From positions 18,207 through 47,516 of the IMG/VR virus record IMGVR_UViG_3300039106_000120: a DNA stretch of 29,310 bases; one strand, written 5' to 3'. Under the pieces are notes generated by a model that was not told the DNA's origin, searched no databases, and saw only the letters and a program-made list of their open reading frames with translations. The position numbers were made by a program, and so were the translations under genes. This DNA is from a virus. Below, in pieces: positions 1 through 29,307 of this stretch (positions within the stretch are counted from its first letter, which is position 1; every line of letters begins with the position of its first letter).

Positions 1-39
1 GTGAGTGAGCAGGTTTCAGACCTAGCAAATTTTCAATAG
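1..39 (+). CDS. Tail assembly chaperone G-like, C-terminal end (partial)
   Basis: The first frame is open from base 1 and ends with TAG at 37-39, encoding only the last 12 residues of an upstream gene. Its position directly before a second short frame and then the tape measure gene matches lambda gpG, the chaperone that coats the tape measure protein during tail assembly. Too little is present to recognise the family by sequence, so the assignment rests on synteny and on the slippery heptamer next to its stop codon. Confidence 0.5.
   Translation: MSEQVSDLANFQ
27..33 (+). promoter_or_regulatory. Probable -1 ribosomal frameshift site (G to G-T fusion)
   Basis: The heptamer A AAT TTT lies in the canonical X XXY YYZ register relative to the upstream frame (codons aat 28-30 and ttt 31-33). 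It is one codon before the in-frame TAG at 37-39. A one-base slip continues at 33 with tca-ata-gaa-cag-atg, exactly the frame of the 45-413 gene, which is open from base 9 onward. Lambda G/GT uses the same arrangement with a different heptamer. I did not find a clear downstream pseudoknot by eye. Confidence 0.7.
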
Positions 40-9242: not shown

Positions 9243-12200
9243 TGGCACAAAAAGAAATTATAGGTAGTGGTGGATGTTTTCCACAGTATGCTAAAGTTCT
9301 AACAACTTCAGGGTATAAAAATATATCTGAAATAGTTGTAGGTGATGAAGTAATCTCCTATAATGATACAGGTAGATTAGCTACCTCTATAGTAGAAGAA
9401 ATATTCTTCCATAAAAATAATGAAGTATCAAAATATACCTATTGGGGCGGAGAGATTTATGCTACTGCTAACCACTGGGTTTTAAACCAACTTAACTCAT
9501 TCTCAGAAATAGGTAATTTATCTACCCATGACTGCTTAGTTGATGTTGATGGAACACTAAGACCAATGCTATCCTCACAAGAGGCCGGTATTGAAGATGT
9601 ATATAACCTATCAGTAACCCCAGACCATACATATATAGTAGATGGAATTCGTGTACATAATGGTGGTGGTGGTAAAGGCGGTGGTGCTTCTCGCCCAGCA
9701 GTAGAAGACCCCAATACATTGCGCTCAAAACAATTTGCTAGAGTACTAGACCTAATTTCCGAGGGTGAAATTGGGGGATTAGTCTCGGAAGATCAATCTA
9801 TATTTATTAATGAAGTACCTCTACAAAATGCAGATGGTACTTATAACTTTAAAGATAGTTATATAGAAACTCGTAATGGTACACAAGATCAACCAGTTAT
9901 TGCAGATTTAAACTCTGTAGAAAATACTATTAATGTATCTACTAAAGTAGACCGCCCTAAATTATTAGAATCTACTTATGAAGCAGCTTCGCAAGCAAGA
10001 ACAAGTATAACATTAACTTTAACTAATCATGGATATTTAAGTGGACAAAGTTTATATATATGTTCTAAAACTGGTACTATACCAGAAAATACTTATACAA
10101 TATCATCAGTAACATCAGATACATATACAATTACTGTACCTAGTGCAATATATGCTGCTGGAATAGTATATGCAAATGCCAGCCTAGTTAATAATATTAA
10201 AATAGGTTCCCATGCAGCCTCTACTTTAGGTTGTACTAAACTTATAACTAAAACCGGTCATGGATATTCAGTTGGTGAGTCTATATATATATGGACTAAA
10301 GAAGAGTTAGGCATTACGTATACTAAAGGTAAAAAAGGTCGTATATATGCTGTATCAGGAGATTTCTTCCCATTATCTGTTTATACAGTAGAATCAAAAA
10401 CAGATAATACATTTACAGTTTTACTAGATAGTCCATATGCATTAAAGGCCTCAAATGTATTTATGTCTAGAGCTACGGGCATAGTACGTTCAGTAACTAA
10501 TTTAGATGCCGATGAATGTTATGTTACTATGGAAGTACCTCAACTTACAAATCAAGATACAACTACTGGAGATTTACATGGTAGTAGCGTATCATTTGTA
10601 TTTAATGTAAAAGATAGTACACCCGGTGCATTATATAAAAGAGTAGGTTTAACTTATAATACTAGAAATAATGGTGTATTATCTGGTACAGCAGTTGAAA
10701 TTCGTACTACAGGAAACTATTCTAGTCAGTCTGGAAGCAGTTCTGTATTATATGCAGAACCTCCACCAGATAATAATACTTATATGATGTATGGAAATAC
10801 AAGTAATAAGTCTAAAACTAAACTAACTGGTTATCCAGTATATACAGAAGTAGAAGACGCAATAGCTACCTCTTTAGTAGTTGGTTGGAGAACTACTAGC
10901 AGTAAAGAACAAAATGCTTCAGTAGGTATATATAAACGTTTAGTTGGTAGTTCTACTTGGATATTACATGCTACAACTACATTTAAAGGTAAAAATGAAG
11001 TAAGAACAAATGCCGGTATGTATAATCAAAGTGTACAAGTTTCAGTTTATATGACTAAAACTATTTCAGTTAAACATACTTTAGGTATATATGAATATAA
11101 ATGTGAATTTATAGGTACAGCAGCAGGAATTACTGGATTTACTAATGGTTCTTATACAGTTACTTATGATACTCTAGGGGTAATAGAGGGTAAAACTCTA
11201 GCTAAGTACCAAAGAGGATATACTATACCATTAAATGGTGTAGGTCCTTGGCAAATACAAGTAATTAGAGTTGAAGAAGAGTCTACAAAGGCTAGTATAT
11301 CTAATGAACTTTGGTGGAGTACCTATACTGAAGTAATAAAAGCCAAATTAAATTACCCTAATAGTGCTATGATGTACTGTGCTATAGATGCCGAACAGTT
11401 CTCAAGTATACCTTCTAGATCATATGAAATATATGGAATTAAATGTAAAGTTCCTTCTAACTATAATCCTCTTACTAGAGCCTATACAGGCTTTTGGGAT
11501 GGTACCTTTGTAACATCTTGGACAGATAATCCTGCATGGGTTTTTTATGATCTAATTACTAATACAAGGTATGGTTTAGGTGATATAGTTACAGGTGCTT
11601 TAGTAGATAAATGGACACTATATTCAATTGCGCAATACTGTGATGGTTTAGTACCTACTGGATTAGGTTTATCTGGTGTGGTAAAGGGCTCTATATCTGG
11701 AACTACTTTAACTATAACTAATGCCGGTATTTTAAATAGTATAGGTGTAGGTACTATAGTTACTGGTTTCGGCATAGAAGAATGTAGTATTACGGCTTTA
11801 GGTACAGCTACTGGTAGTGTAGGTACATATACTATTAGTAAATCTCAAACAGTAGTAGCAGGTTCATCAATTAATATTATTATTGATGATGCAGAACCTA
11901 GATTTACTTGTAATTTATACTTACAAACTAGAGAAGATGCCTATAAAGTGGTATCTAATTTAGCATCTATATTTAGAGGTATGGTTTTTTGGTCTACTGG
12001 ACTAGTTACTGCATCTCAAGATGCACCTAAATCTGTAGATGCAGTATATACTGCTGCTAATGTTATAGATGGAACATTTACATATACTGGTACATCTGCT
12101 AAAACTCGTCATAATGTAGTATTAGTTTCTTGGAATAATCCTAAGAATGGTTATGCTATTGAGATTGAGTATGTGCAAGATGAAGCTTCAATATTACAAA

Positions 12201-25094: not shown

Positions 25095-25688
25095 ATGGCA
25101 ACCCCAGCGAAAGTAAATCTAGTAATTTACCAAGGCTCTACTTTTAGCGAAATCCTTCGTTGGGAAAGTAGCAGAAAAGTTTATAAACCTATTACAGGTA
25201 TAACTAATGCAGCTCCTGTTATTATAACAGCAACTGCACATGATGTTCCAGATGGCTGGAGAGTTAGATTTACCAATGTTTTAGGCATGAAAGAAATTAA
25301 TTCAGCAGCAGATACTTATTCTACAGCTGTACTAAAAACAGCTAATACAATAGAAATTAATGCAATTAATAGTATTGCATATACACCATATGCTTCCGGC
25401 GGTATTTTAGAGTATAATGAACCAATTAATTTAGCAGGATATACTGCTCGTATGCAAATACGTAATAAATTAGGTGATTCTACTTACTTACTAGATATGA
25501 CTACTGAAAATGGTAGAATAATTCTTAATAATTCTATTAAAACTATAGAATTAAAAATTACAGCTACTGATACTACAGCTATTACCTGGACTAGTGGTGT
25601 ATATTCACTAGAGCTAGTATCTGCTGGTGGTATAGTATCAACTTTAATGAATGGTACTGTAACTGTAAAACAAGAAGTTACACGATAA
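25095..25688 (+). CDS. Conserved phage tail-associated protein, unknown role
   Basis: The 197-residue protein starts with an NLVIYQGSTFSEILRW segment. It has NLAGYTARMQIRNKLGDSTYLLDM in the centre and ends WTSGVYSLELVSAGGIVSTLMNGTVTVKQEVTR. This N-terminal, middle and C-terminal pattern is common in small phage proteins encoded near fibre and lysis genes, often described only as hypothetical. Between its first and middle parts (about 40-100) is an inserted beta segment with TATAHDVPDGWRVRFTNV, like the small 'NHGY' repeat domains of J. The RBS is taaaggataaaatt. It is the first gene of its transcription unit and overlaps the next short gene (TAATG). A structural role is likely but unproven. 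Confidence 0.65.
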   Translation: MATPAKVNLVIYQGSTFSEILRWESSRKVYKPITGITNAAPVIITATAHDVPDGWRVRFTNVLGMKEINSAADTYSTAVLKTANTIEINAINSIAYTPYASGGILEYNEPINLAGYTARMQIRNKLGDSTYLLDMTTENGRIILNNSIKTIELKITATDTTAITWTSGVYSLELVSAGGIVSTLMNGTVTVKQEVTR

Positions 25689-25822
25689 TGTTTGAAGATC
25701 AAATTATAGTACCTACAGTTATAGTTCCTGTAATTTTGACTCAGCATACTTCTTCAACTATATATACAGTAGAATTTGATTCTACATATACTACTCTGGT
25801 AACTACCAATGAATACTTATGA
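25688..25822 (+). CDS. Small 44-residue protein, paralogue of the next gene's N-terminus
   Basis: The frame starts on the upstream stop (TAATG) and encodes MFEDQIIVPTVIVPVILTQ, followed by a beta-type C-terminal half. Its EDQIIV start is repeated in the next gene, and the DNA around it is a 20-base direct repeat. It looks like a small structural or adapter peptide that arose by duplication. The stop codon lies inside the start region of the next gene. No function can be assigned. Confidence 0.55.
   Translation: MFEDQIIVPTVIVPVILTQHTSSTIYTVEFDSTYTTLVTTNEYL
25693..25712 (+). repeat. 20-bp direct repeat, copy 1
   Basis: Identical by eye to 25820-25839. It encodes the shared EDQIIV segment at the start of two adjacent small genes. 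Confidence 0.9.
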
Positions 25823-26123
25823 AGATCAAATTATAGTACGTAATGTAGTTGAAACTACTACCCTAGTATCGCAAGGAGCTCCTGGCCCTAAAGGTGACAC
25901 TGGTATCCCTGAAGCATCAATTCCATACAGTAAAAATGTAGATTTTTACTCTGAAAATATAGTTTACAGAGCTGAAGCAGCCGTAAACTCTTTAAATAAT
26001 GCACCAGTATGGAGAATAAAAAAAGTTCTCATAGCTGGTGAAAATGTAACGGAAACTTGGGCAAGCGGTACTGCCTTATTTGATAAAATATGGGATAATA
26101 GAATATCCTACATATATAGTTAA
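25809..26123 (+). CDS. Small collagen-like tail-associated protein 2
   Basis: The 104-residue protein begins MNTYEDQIIVRNVVETTTLV, then a short collagen-like GAPGPKGDTG, then a beta-rich domain. That domain has YSENIVYRAEAAVNSLNNAPVWRIKKV and TETWASGTALFDKIWDN. The last part (WRIKKV to DKIWDNR) is a pattern seen in small cyanophage and siphophage fibre accessory proteins. The start overlaps the previous gene by 14 bases. It probably trimerises as part of a fibre or baseplate appendage. The collagen-like element parallels the 69-residue protein at 19030. Confidence 0.6.
   Translation: MNTYEDQIIVRNVVETTTLVSQGAPGPKGDTGIPEASIPYSKNVDFYSENIVYRAEAAVNSLNNAPVWRIKKVLIAGENVTETWASGTALFDKIWDNRISYIYS
25820..25839 (+). 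repeat. 20-bp direct repeat, copy 2
   Basis: Second copy of the sequence at 25693-25712, near the start of the collagen-like gene. Confidence 0.9.
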
Positions 26124-26132
26124 GGGTATCTA

Positions 26133-26390
26133 ATGGAAAAGTTATTTATATTGTTTGCTGATGGTATTGCCAGTGGCGGACCAGCAGCAATTATACTAAT
26201 ATTACTGGGAGTTATAGGAATATTAGTTTGGGATAGAGTAGGTTTAATTAAATCTATGAAAGAAAACTCCAAACTATATCGTAGTGATATTAATAGAGTT
26301 ATTGATAAATATCAAGAAGGTCAAATTAATGTTATTCAAGCTTTAAATGACATTAAATTAATCTTGGTAAAGGTAGAGGCTAAAGTATGA
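26133..26390 (+). CDS. One-TM membrane protein with helical tail (holin- or anchor-like)
   Basis: The 85-residue protein has one clear transmembrane helix (about 17-33, AAIILILLGVIGILVW). The residues before it carry little charge. After it comes a charged, coiled-coil-like C-terminal domain (about 38-83). By the positive-inside rule (R35, K40, K43 and R50 after the helix) the tail is cytoplasmic. Size and shape suit a small holin-like or antiholin-like protein or a membrane anchor; no endolysin is present in the window to support lysis. Its last four bases overlap the start of the PAS protein gene (ATGA type), so the two are translationally coupled and may form a complex. Confidence 0.6.
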   Translation: MEKLFILFADGIASGGPAAIILILLGVIGILVWDRVGLIKSMKENSKLYRSDINRVIDKYQEGQINVIQALNDIKLILVKVEAKV

Positions 26391-27325
26391 GCCTCCTAGA
26401 AAGTTTATCTAACCTAATATTCTGGAGGAAGTCGTATAAAGATACAATAGCCACTGATCTAAGCTCATTAGACTCTATTAATTCTAAATTAGAAGAGGTG
26501 GTATTAGATACTTCTTCTATTTCTAAACGTATTATTCGTAAGCTTGAAAATAAGATTGAATATATTCAACAGGAACTTTCTGAAAGAGAAGAATTATTGG
26601 GACATGTATTTTCAGGTGTATCTGATGTATTAATATTAAAAGATGGTGAAGGTCGTTGGAAACTTGTAAATTCTTATGGTAAAAAAGTATTTGGTATAGA
26701 ACATAATGAATATAAGAATAAAACAGATTTTGAGATGTGTGATGTATCTCCAAGATTTAAAGAAATGTTTGAGGTATGTATAAAAACAGATATTCAAGCA
26801 TGGGAAACAAAAGAAATTATTGAAACAGAAGAACGTTCTATAGATTCTTTTGGGGAAGAGGTAGTTTTTGATGTAATAAAAACTCCAATATTTAATGAAG
26901 ATGGAAGCAAAAAGCATTTATTAGTACACGGAAAAAATATAACAGAAGAACTAGAAAATACTAAACATATTCGTATGTTAATGAATGCTTTAAATAAGGC
27001 TTCAGATAGTATTACTGTAACTGACCATAATCATAATACTATTTATGCTAATGAGGCATTTTTAGACTTATATGGTTATAGTTTAGAAGAAGTATTAAAT
27101 AAACCTAGGAAGTTAGTAGCTTCTGGTCAAACTCCAAATGAAACATATATTGCTATGTTTGAAAAAATTACCAGAGCCCTGCCTTGGGCTGGTGAAATGA
27201 TAAATAAAACTAAATCTGGTGAAATATTGAATGAATTGATTTCAATAACCCCAGTTTTAAATGGGAAACCATATCCAATATACTATATTGCGGTAAATAG
27301 ACCAATTAGTAAGGAATCTGTTTAA
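26387..27325 (+). CDS. Two-PAS-domain sensory protein without output domain
   Basis: The 312-residue protein starts with a hydrophobic/basic patch (1-20). A coiled coil follows (about 28-70, including SKLEEVV and RKLENKIEYIQQELSEREELL). PAS domain 1 (about 72-188) has GVSDVLILKDGEGRWKLVN and ends with a HGKNITEELE PAC-type linker. PAS domain 2 (about 197-308) has ITVTDHNHNTIYANEAF, then YGYSLEEVLNK, then PW267AGEMINKTKSGE and PVLNG...YYIAVNR. The second domain strongly resembles the FAD-binding PAS domain of NifL, including the PWxGxxxN patch. There is no kinase, HTH, GGDEF or nuclease domain. It overlaps a one-TM protein gene by 4 bases. Ligand, signal and partner are inference. Finding a PAS sensor within a tail operon is unusual. 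Confidence 0.82.
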   Translation: MSLLESLSNLIFWRKSYKDTIATDLSSLDSINSKLEEVVLDTSSISKRIIRKLENKIEYIQQELSEREELLGHVFSGVSDVLILKDGEGRWKLVNSYGKKVFGIEHNEYKNKTDFEMCDVSPRFKEMFEVCIKTDIQAWETKEIIETEERSIDSFGEEVVFDVIKTPIFNEDGSKKHLLVHGKNITEELENTKHIRMLMNALNKASDSITVTDHNHNTIYANEAFLDLYGYSLEEVLNKPRKLVASGQTPNETYIAMFEKITRALPWAGEMINKTKSGEILNELISITPVLNGKPYPIYYIAVNRPISKESV

Positions 27326-27717: not shown

Positions 27718-29307
27718 ATGACTGATTTCATTTCACTTCCACCAGATGGTGTAGGTAAAAAAGTAAGACATAGAATACTAGCAGACTTGGTTGTTATAAA
27801 TCAATCAACTCCTCCACTAATCTATTCGACCATAGTAGGGTCAACATCTTTAGCAACTGCTATTATAGATAGTATTGATACTGATGTAACTGGTAAATTA
27901 AACTATTATTTATCTGATGTAGTTGGTACTTTTATACCTGGCGAAGTATTAAGAAATACTACTAATACTATTAATTATGCTACTATTTCAACAGTAACTC
28001 CTGGTATTTATACACCTCAAGTTAATATATCTGATGCTAATAATCCATCTCATACTCAAAAGGTAGATAAACGAGGAGCAGCATTAGCTACATTCCCAGA
28101 AGGTACTCCTCAATTTGATTCTTTTGGTCGTATGCAAGTATCGCAAATGTTGGCTGTTGGTGAATACTATCATGTAGGTGCCGATCAGCCTGGTAAGTAT
28201 TGGAATGATACTAATGGCACTGGTTCTATAACCTATAATCAGGCATCAAGTTCTATTAAATATAGTGCTGGTACAGCTTCTGGTGATAGAGCATATAGAA
28301 CTACTAATCAATACCACCCATATAAACCAGCAACATCTAATTTAATTTATACATCAGTAGCTTGTGGAGACTCAGGTAAAACTAATGTAATACGTGAGTG
28401 GGGCTATTTCGATGACCTTAATGGTTTTGGGTTTAGATTAAATGGTACTACCCTACAAGTATTTATTCGTTCAGATGTTACTGGAAGTGTTGTAGATACC
28501 GTAGTAAACCAAGCTAACTGGAATAATAATATTCTAGATAATAGTACAGCGTCAGACTTTGTTTTAAATCTAACTAAACTAAATATATTTTGGATGGATT
28601 TTGAATGGATGGGTGCCGGTACCGTTCGTCTAGGTGTAGTAACTCCTGATGGAAGACGTATTACTTGTCATACTTTTGAAAATACTAATAATGTTACATT
28701 ACCCTTTATGCGTACGGCTACATTGCCACTACGTTGGGGAATAAAAAATACTGCCATATCTGCTAGTACATCTGAAATGAGTGTAGTTGCTGGTGCAGTA
28801 TTTACTGAATCTGCCGATGTTCAATACTCTGGTACTTTAATTCATACAAGTCCACCAAATCCGATCGTATTAGTAAATTCCGATGTATATAGACCTTTCC
28901 TATCTTTTAGACCAAAACTAACTATTGGTGGATATCCTAATAGAATTATTGGTATACACGAGGCTTTTGATTGGGCAAGTATTGGTGATTCAGCAGTTCA
29001 TATTGGTATATTTGTAAATCCAAGTTCACTAACTGGTGCTATTTGGTCAAATTCTATAGTTCCTACTAGTATGTTACAAGTTGATAGATCCGCTAGTGAA
29101 ATGTCTCAAGACGGCACTTTAATAGAATCATTCCTTGTTGGTCCTAATAGTGCCGATAGAGTTACATTGGGTGATAGGTTAGAAAAATCTTTTGAACTAC
29201 CAGCAGATGGTGTAACTCAACCAGTATTTGTATTTGCTGCTAAAGTACTAAAAGCTGATACAGCAGTTAGTTTCTTCTATACAAAATATTGGAAAGAGAT
29301 TAGATAA
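27718..29307 (+). CDS. Large phage structural protein (fibre/baseplate-associated)
   Basis: The 529-residue protein belongs by pattern to a family of structural proteins found in many marine and freshwater phages. An N-terminal beta region comes first, then PQFDSFGRMQVSQ near 125-138, GKYWNDTNGTGS, and NQASSSIKYSAGTASGDRAYR. Next is a lectin-like core with REWGYFDDLNGFGFRLNGT, then VFIRSDVTGSVVDTVVNQANW, then LTKLNIFWMDFEWMGAGTVRLGVV and LPLRWGIKN. The C-terminal part carries the module VLKADTAVSFFYTKYWKEIR. The jelly-roll-like core suggests carbohydrate binding or virion decoration. The RBS is taaggaaagcaata. The stop overlaps an ATG at 29307 (TAATG), so the operon continues beyond the window. 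Confidence 0.75.
   Translation: MTDFISLPPDGVGKKVRHRILADLVVINQSTPPLIYSTIVGSTSLATAIIDSIDTDVTGKLNYYLSDVVGTFIPGEVLRNTTNTINYATISTVTPGIYTPQVNISDANNPSHTQKVDKRGAALATFPEGTPQFDSFGRMQVSQMLAVGEYYHVGADQPGKYWNDTNGTGSITYNQASSSIKYSAGTASGDRAYRTTNQYHPYKPATSNLIYTSVACGDSGKTNVIREWGYFDDLNGFGFRLNGTTLQVFIRSDVTGSVVDTVVNQANWNNNILDNSTASDFVLNLTKLNIFWMDFEWMGAGTVRLGVVTPDGRRITCHTFENTNNVTLPFMRTATLPLRWGIKNTAISASTSEMSVVAGAVFTESADVQYSGTLIHTSPPNPIVLVNSDVYRPFLSFRPKLTIGGYPNRIIGIHEAFDWASIGDSAVHIGIFVNPSSLTGAIWSNSIVPTSMLQVDRSASEMSQDGTLIESFLVGPNSADRVTLGDRLEKSFELPADGVTQPVFVFAAKVLKADTAVSFFYTKYWKEIR

Follow-up and report, generated by a model that had tools for sequence, protein, structure and literature searches.

A membrane protein gene and the coil-PAS gene directly downstream of it apparently form a real, conserved two-gene viral module that has so far gone undescribed. 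The two genes lie in the window, by which we mean the whole stretch of DNA that was analyzed; it covers the final 29.3 kb of a 47.5-kb virus record, and its end is the end of the contig. We consider it an even call that the pair is a bipartite, virus-encoded, membrane-anchored sensory module, in which the PAS protein would bind the membrane protein and signal through it. The features of the locus are as follows.

26133..26390, + strand: 85-amino acid protein with one transmembrane (TM) segment, probably N-out/C-in, with predicted cytoplasmic C-terminal helices around the conserved turn KYQEGQI(N/S)V(I/V)QA.
26387..27325, + strand: 312-amino acid soluble protein with an N-terminal coiled coil and two PAS domains, without an output domain.
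26393..26617, + strand: coiled-coil region, residues 3-77, the part common to the PAS proteins of the large viruses.
26612..26950, + strand: PAS1, residues 76-188, located where the distant relatives have their only PAS.
27002..27271, + strand: PAS2, residues 206-295, NifL/MmoS-like, with Phe258, Arg241, and Asn273, and without a counterpart in the distant relatives.

The two reading frames, of 85 (26133-26390) and 312 codons (26387-27325), overlap by 4 bp, as had been predicted. Another 4-bp overlap is found in the same genome (8125-8688/8685-9242), and short overlaps are ordinary among its neighboring genes, so the overlap alone says little about a partnership and was dropped as a special sign of one. 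A comparison with L003, the 95% identical relative, showed strong purifying selection on both genes, with a dN/dS of 0.12 for the membrane protein gene and 0.07 for the PAS protein gene, and the coil, PAS1, and PAS2 segments of the latter each gave values of 0.06-0.08. We regard both as real genes. They are flanked by a small gene (25809-26123) on one side and a gene for a 123-amino acid protein on the other, which precedes the gene of a virion structural protein (27718-29307, phrog_1645), all on the + strand. According to PHROGs, the window genes are of the long-tailed phage type (head, connector, tail, and fiber), and the terminase shares 48% identity with those of 113-kb Vibrio phages. Upstream, at 25095-25688, a 197-amino acid phrog_1084 protein contains a stretch resembling the FCCH domain of ubiquitin-activating enzymes (E 9e-6, below cut-off); the phrog_1084 profile spans only 123 positions. 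The translation of an ORF that overlaps window positions 1-39 (L002:17862-18245 in record coordinates) contains four X residues, and the record must therefore have a short N stretch near the window start.

The 85-amino acid protein has a single hydrophobic segment (residues 14-32, Kyte-Doolittle 2.41), and Lys and Arg are more numerous C-terminal of it; its topology is probably N-out/C-in. The structural model comprises helices at residues 2-13, 17-61, and 67-84, with a pLDDT of 80-85 around the conserved turn, and predicts a helical hairpin after the membrane segment. A viral fold search with this model returned no significant match. The protein contains no recognized signaling or effector domain, and no chemoreceptor signaling domain was matched in any of the membrane proteins (85-97 amino acids) of the pair loci.

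Profile searches bore out the original prediction that the downstream product is made of a coiled coil and two PAS domains without an output domain. Pfam PAS_4 matched residues 76-188 (54.9 bits against a cut-off of 23.1), PAS_9 matched residues 206-295 (E 2.8e-17; 63.3 bits against 27), TIGR00229 scored 73.2 bits against 22.9, and beyond PAS no other domain type was significant. Residues 3-77 are predicted to be helical and show a heptad-like hydrophobic periodicity. The structure prediction for the whole protein was poor (pLDDT 41 from five sequences). The full-length NifL model, TIGR02938, reached 76 bits against a cut-off of 242 and matched only the PAS part, so the protein is not a NifL equivalog.

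Relatives were sought in viral contigs with the membrane protein, both as a single sequence and as an alignment, and homologues were found in four other uncultured viruses. The 52-kb contig L003/L006 encodes a membrane protein 95% identical to that of the window. Those of L005/L007 (80 kb), L008 (345 kb), and L009 (55 kb) are distant, with 30-39% identity to the window protein, and all three keep the C-terminal signature KYQEGQI(S/N)V(I/V)QA. In each of the five viruses, a gene for a coil and PAS protein lies directly downstream of the membrane protein gene, at a distance of -4 to about +20 bp; the linkage on which the predicted pairing depended is thus conserved. Pfam PAS was clear in the L005 partner (E 4e-8, above cut-off) and fell below cut-off in the L008 and L009 partners (E about 0.005). 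The three distant viruses share one neighborhood, in which the opposite strand carries genes for a cpYpsA/SLOG protein and a phosphohydrolase of the HD type. We therefore counted two independent lineages rather than four, and the known members number five from about two lineages. The linkage supports a partnership of the two genes well, and we infer that their products are in physical contact.

Beyond these members, an exact DNA-pattern scan for KYQEGQI gave chance matches only, seven in number, which came without a membrane protein and without a PAS neighbor. At the sensitivity used, 50,697 annotated phage records yielded no member of the pair, with matches only at chance level or to host-type aerotaxis and chemoreceptor proteins, and GTDB genomes yielded no relative of the membrane protein. 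PAS2 matched bacterial PAS-like sequences in GTDB at 26-43%. Among terminase-based relatives beyond the 95% relative, only G004 reaches the neighboring phrog_1084 gene, and its remaining 0.9 kb holds no pair. Models of defense systems gave chance-level matches only. In L003, the PAS gene is directly followed by an extra gene (10936-11346) for a Cys-rich protein of 136 amino acids, with a CxxC motif and several more cysteines, which is missing from the window phage (27325-27335) and gave no match in Pfam, PHROGs, or NCBIfam.

The partners in the distant viruses have a single PAS and a length of about 220-240 amino acids. The coil of the window protein aligned to those of L005 and L009 without gaps and in the same register (p 0.02-0.04 in shuffles keeping the hydrophobic pattern); the L008 coil was not significant on its own, and over the distant partners p ranged from 0.02 to 0.28. 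A Thr is common to the aligned coils, with Asp-Thr in most. Using hhalign, the coil and the start of PAS1 were joined to the distant partners with an E of 0.0018 and a probability of only 15%. By these comparisons, the conserved core consists of the membrane protein, the coil, and the first PAS, with a coil similarity that is modest. PAS2 is missing from three of the five members and is found only in the lineage of the window, where the NifL-like domain appears to be an addition. In two of the three large-virus PAS proteins, L005:5291-5950 (CNECLKDELPFC) and L009:6161-6883 (SCDEDCANC), a Cys cluster lies in the middle of the PAS region and is possibly a metal or iron-sulfur site; L008 does not have it.

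In the sensory module that we propose, the small protein would cross the inner membrane once, with a short stalk of helix and a hairpin on the cytoplasmic side. The PAS protein would dock on it, most simply through the N-terminal coiled coil, and its PAS domain or domains would report a cytoplasmic condition, which could be a bound small molecule, the state of a cofactor, or only the state of assembly. By way of the coil, the signal would then reach the membrane protein, which would relay it to a process at the membrane or to a membrane protein of the host. Adjacency at all five loci despite membrane protein identities down to 30-39%, a coil and PAS in every partner, and purifying selection on both genes argue for such a module; the ungapped, single-register alignment of the coils, the hairpin in the predicted TM-protein structure, and the precedent of CetA/CetB are consistent with it. 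Against it stand the PAS model with its pLDDT of 41, the modest similarity of the coils, a membership of five in about two lineages, and a membrane protein in which no signaling or effector domain is recognized.

By analogy, CetA/CetB is the nearest functional parallel. The membrane protein CetA and the PAS protein CetB, a peripheral membrane protein, amount to one Aer-type receptor split in two (PMC2628428; PMC12442639), and CetB is membrane-associated and probably also bound to CetA (PMC2628428). As in Campylobacter, and in CetA2/CetB2 of Magnetospirillum, the membrane and PAS proteins of the phage pair are encoded together, adjacent at all five loci, and the phage PAS protein may likewise work at the membrane via its partner. 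However, CetA has a HAMP and a chemoreceptor signaling domain, whereas the phage membrane protein has no known output domain; because it lacks the chemoreceptor domain, the pair is not a member of the CetA/CetB family. CetB2 also keeps the FAD residues, which the phage PAS2 does not, and CetA/CetB is bacterial rather than viral. Among phages, vibriophage VP882 encodes the PAS sensor VqmA, a transcription factor (PMC8284805). It resembles the window protein in being a phage-encoded PAS protein and senses the surroundings of the cell, but VqmA binds DNA, whereas no DNA-binding domain occurs in the window protein, which comes paired with a membrane protein. In the literature searched, we found no phage-encoded PAS sensor beyond VqmA and no phage TM/PAS pair, in agreement with the original impression that no phage system of this arrangement had been described.

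In sensor kinases such as WalK, PnpS, and AtoS, too, a membrane segment is followed by a helical linker that runs into a PAS domain, but the phage pair has the membrane segment and the coil-PAS part on two different proteins and lacks the kinase. Matches of NCBIfam models of these kinases to the large-virus partners, L008 and L009 among them, span the junction of coil and PAS, and in the window protein PAS2 is matched by NifL. Together with the absence of a catalytic part and the presence of other host-signaling-type genes near the pair in the large viruses, these matches could mean that the PAS protein is a decoy subunit, which would dimerize with a host sensor kinase through its linker-PAS-like part to block or bias it, with the membrane protein as a tether. 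Such matches are, however, expected for any coil-PAS protein, and we consider a decoy unlikely.

The prediction had further likened PAS2 to the FAD-binding PAS of NifL and cast it as a redox sensor. The likeness stood in part. The PWxGxxxN patch and the PVL..YY pattern are present, and the best solved relative of PAS2 is NifL PAS1 (2gj3; E 2.5e-17, 34% over 106 ungapped residues), followed by MmoS. We mapped the flavin-site positions, in NifL and Aer numbering, by an ungapped alignment of PAS2. PAS2 keeps the conserved Asn (Asn273; NifL N102, Aer N85) and the PWxG turn, including Trp267 and Gly269. In place of the F-alpha Trp (NifL W87, Aer W70) that marks FAD-PAS clusters 4, 9, and 14, it has Phe258, a residue unchanged in L003, and Arg241 occupies the conserved His position (Aer H53, MmoS H132; Glu70 in NifL). 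Unlike NifL, MmoS, and Aer, the window protein also has no kinase-like or chemoreceptor part.

A 2023 survey of PAS domains named the F-alpha Trp as the primary determinant of FAD binding throughout the FAD-PAS clusters and the His and Asn as secondary ones (PMC10468136). In the Aer structure, W70 stacks on the adenine and H53 on the ring of the flavin, with O4/N3 bound by N85 (PMC9668731). The PWxGxxxN patch is not diagnostic of flavin because it also occurs in MmoS PAS-B, which has the same PWSGxxxN patch without the Trp and His and is listed without a ligand and with a small pocket (PMC8694187). In Pseudomonas PA0285 PAS2, the Trp and Asn are retained, but the domain did not bind FAD in vitro (PMC10874727), and the W71M substitution at the corresponding Trp abolishes the function of CetB2 (PMC12442639). 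Given these precedents and the differences at two of the three flavin-site residues, FAD should not be the default ligand, and we dropped the FAD redox sensor as the default reading; FAD binding by PAS2 is possible, as the aromatic Phe258 could still stack on the adenine in the manner of Aer W70.

These residues bear on the full form of the redox proposal, in which PAS2 would bind FAD and sense redox or energy state while the membrane protein gates lysis or DNA entry. The closeness of PAS2 to NifL and MmoS, the retained Asn, Trp, and Gly, and the same-strand lysis cassette that lies downstream of the pair in L003 speak for it. The altered Trp and Glu/His positions, the CetB2 and PA0285 results, and the three members without PAS2 speak against it, as does the lysis cassette itself, which supplies these functions separately. 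In L003, it follows the PAS gene at a distance of about 2.9 kb. Its products are a small, hydrophobic, 2-TM-like membrane protein of phrog_1322, a protein with a weak resemblance to Rz (E 0.003), a small one that is lipoprotein-like, and an endolysin of the M15 type; the window contig stops before the matching point. The phage family of the window would therefore have holin and spanin candidates besides the TM protein, which is ruled out as the sole holin candidate. In the stretches read from the large viruses, no lysis gene lies beside the pair, which adjoins signaling-type genes rather than DNA-entry genes. Neither gating of lysis nor gating of DNA entry was thus borne out, and we place the redox-lysis account among the less likely readings and consider it quite improbable. 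Lysis control is just one of several possible outputs of the sensory module.

The same cassette counts against the view that the TM protein is itself a holin or holin-like lysis protein with the PAS protein as its cytoplasmic regulator. Its size, its single TM segment, the late-gene position of the pair in the window lineage, and a weak likeness of the L005 homologue to phrog_1625 (bacteriocin production or immunity, E 0.0024) would fit this view. The window protein, however, matched no holin family in Pfam, PHROGs, or NCBIfam, L003 has its candidate membrane, Rz-like, and endolysin genes elsewhere, and no lysis neighbors accompany the pair in the stretches read from the large viruses, so that this role is very improbable.

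The neighbors in the large viruses are SLOG, phosphohydrolase, and TROVE or PrkA-type genes, with a glycosyl hydrolase family 16 protein in L005, and this neighborhood hints at host-state sensing. To our knowledge, few phage-encoded sensors of host physiology are known. Conservation of a membrane-anchored PAS pair from small to very large phages would suggest that phages are able to monitor the state of the cell while infecting it and to act on its envelope, and the unit, two genes with about 310-400 amino acids altogether, is small enough to be easy to test. For the sensory module, we put forward a more specific form as a tentative, somewhat doubtful proposal: from small tailed to jumbo phages, the PAS protein would read a metabolic variable of the infected cell and the complex, devoid of any known output domain, would act on a process at the membrane, the variable differing by lineage, with a NifL-like PAS added in one and a different single PAS in the other. 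Near the pair, L005:2761-4749 encodes a PrkA-type serine kinase and L008:7762-9312 a TROVE/Ro60-type protein, both host-stress-type genes that are unusual for phages.
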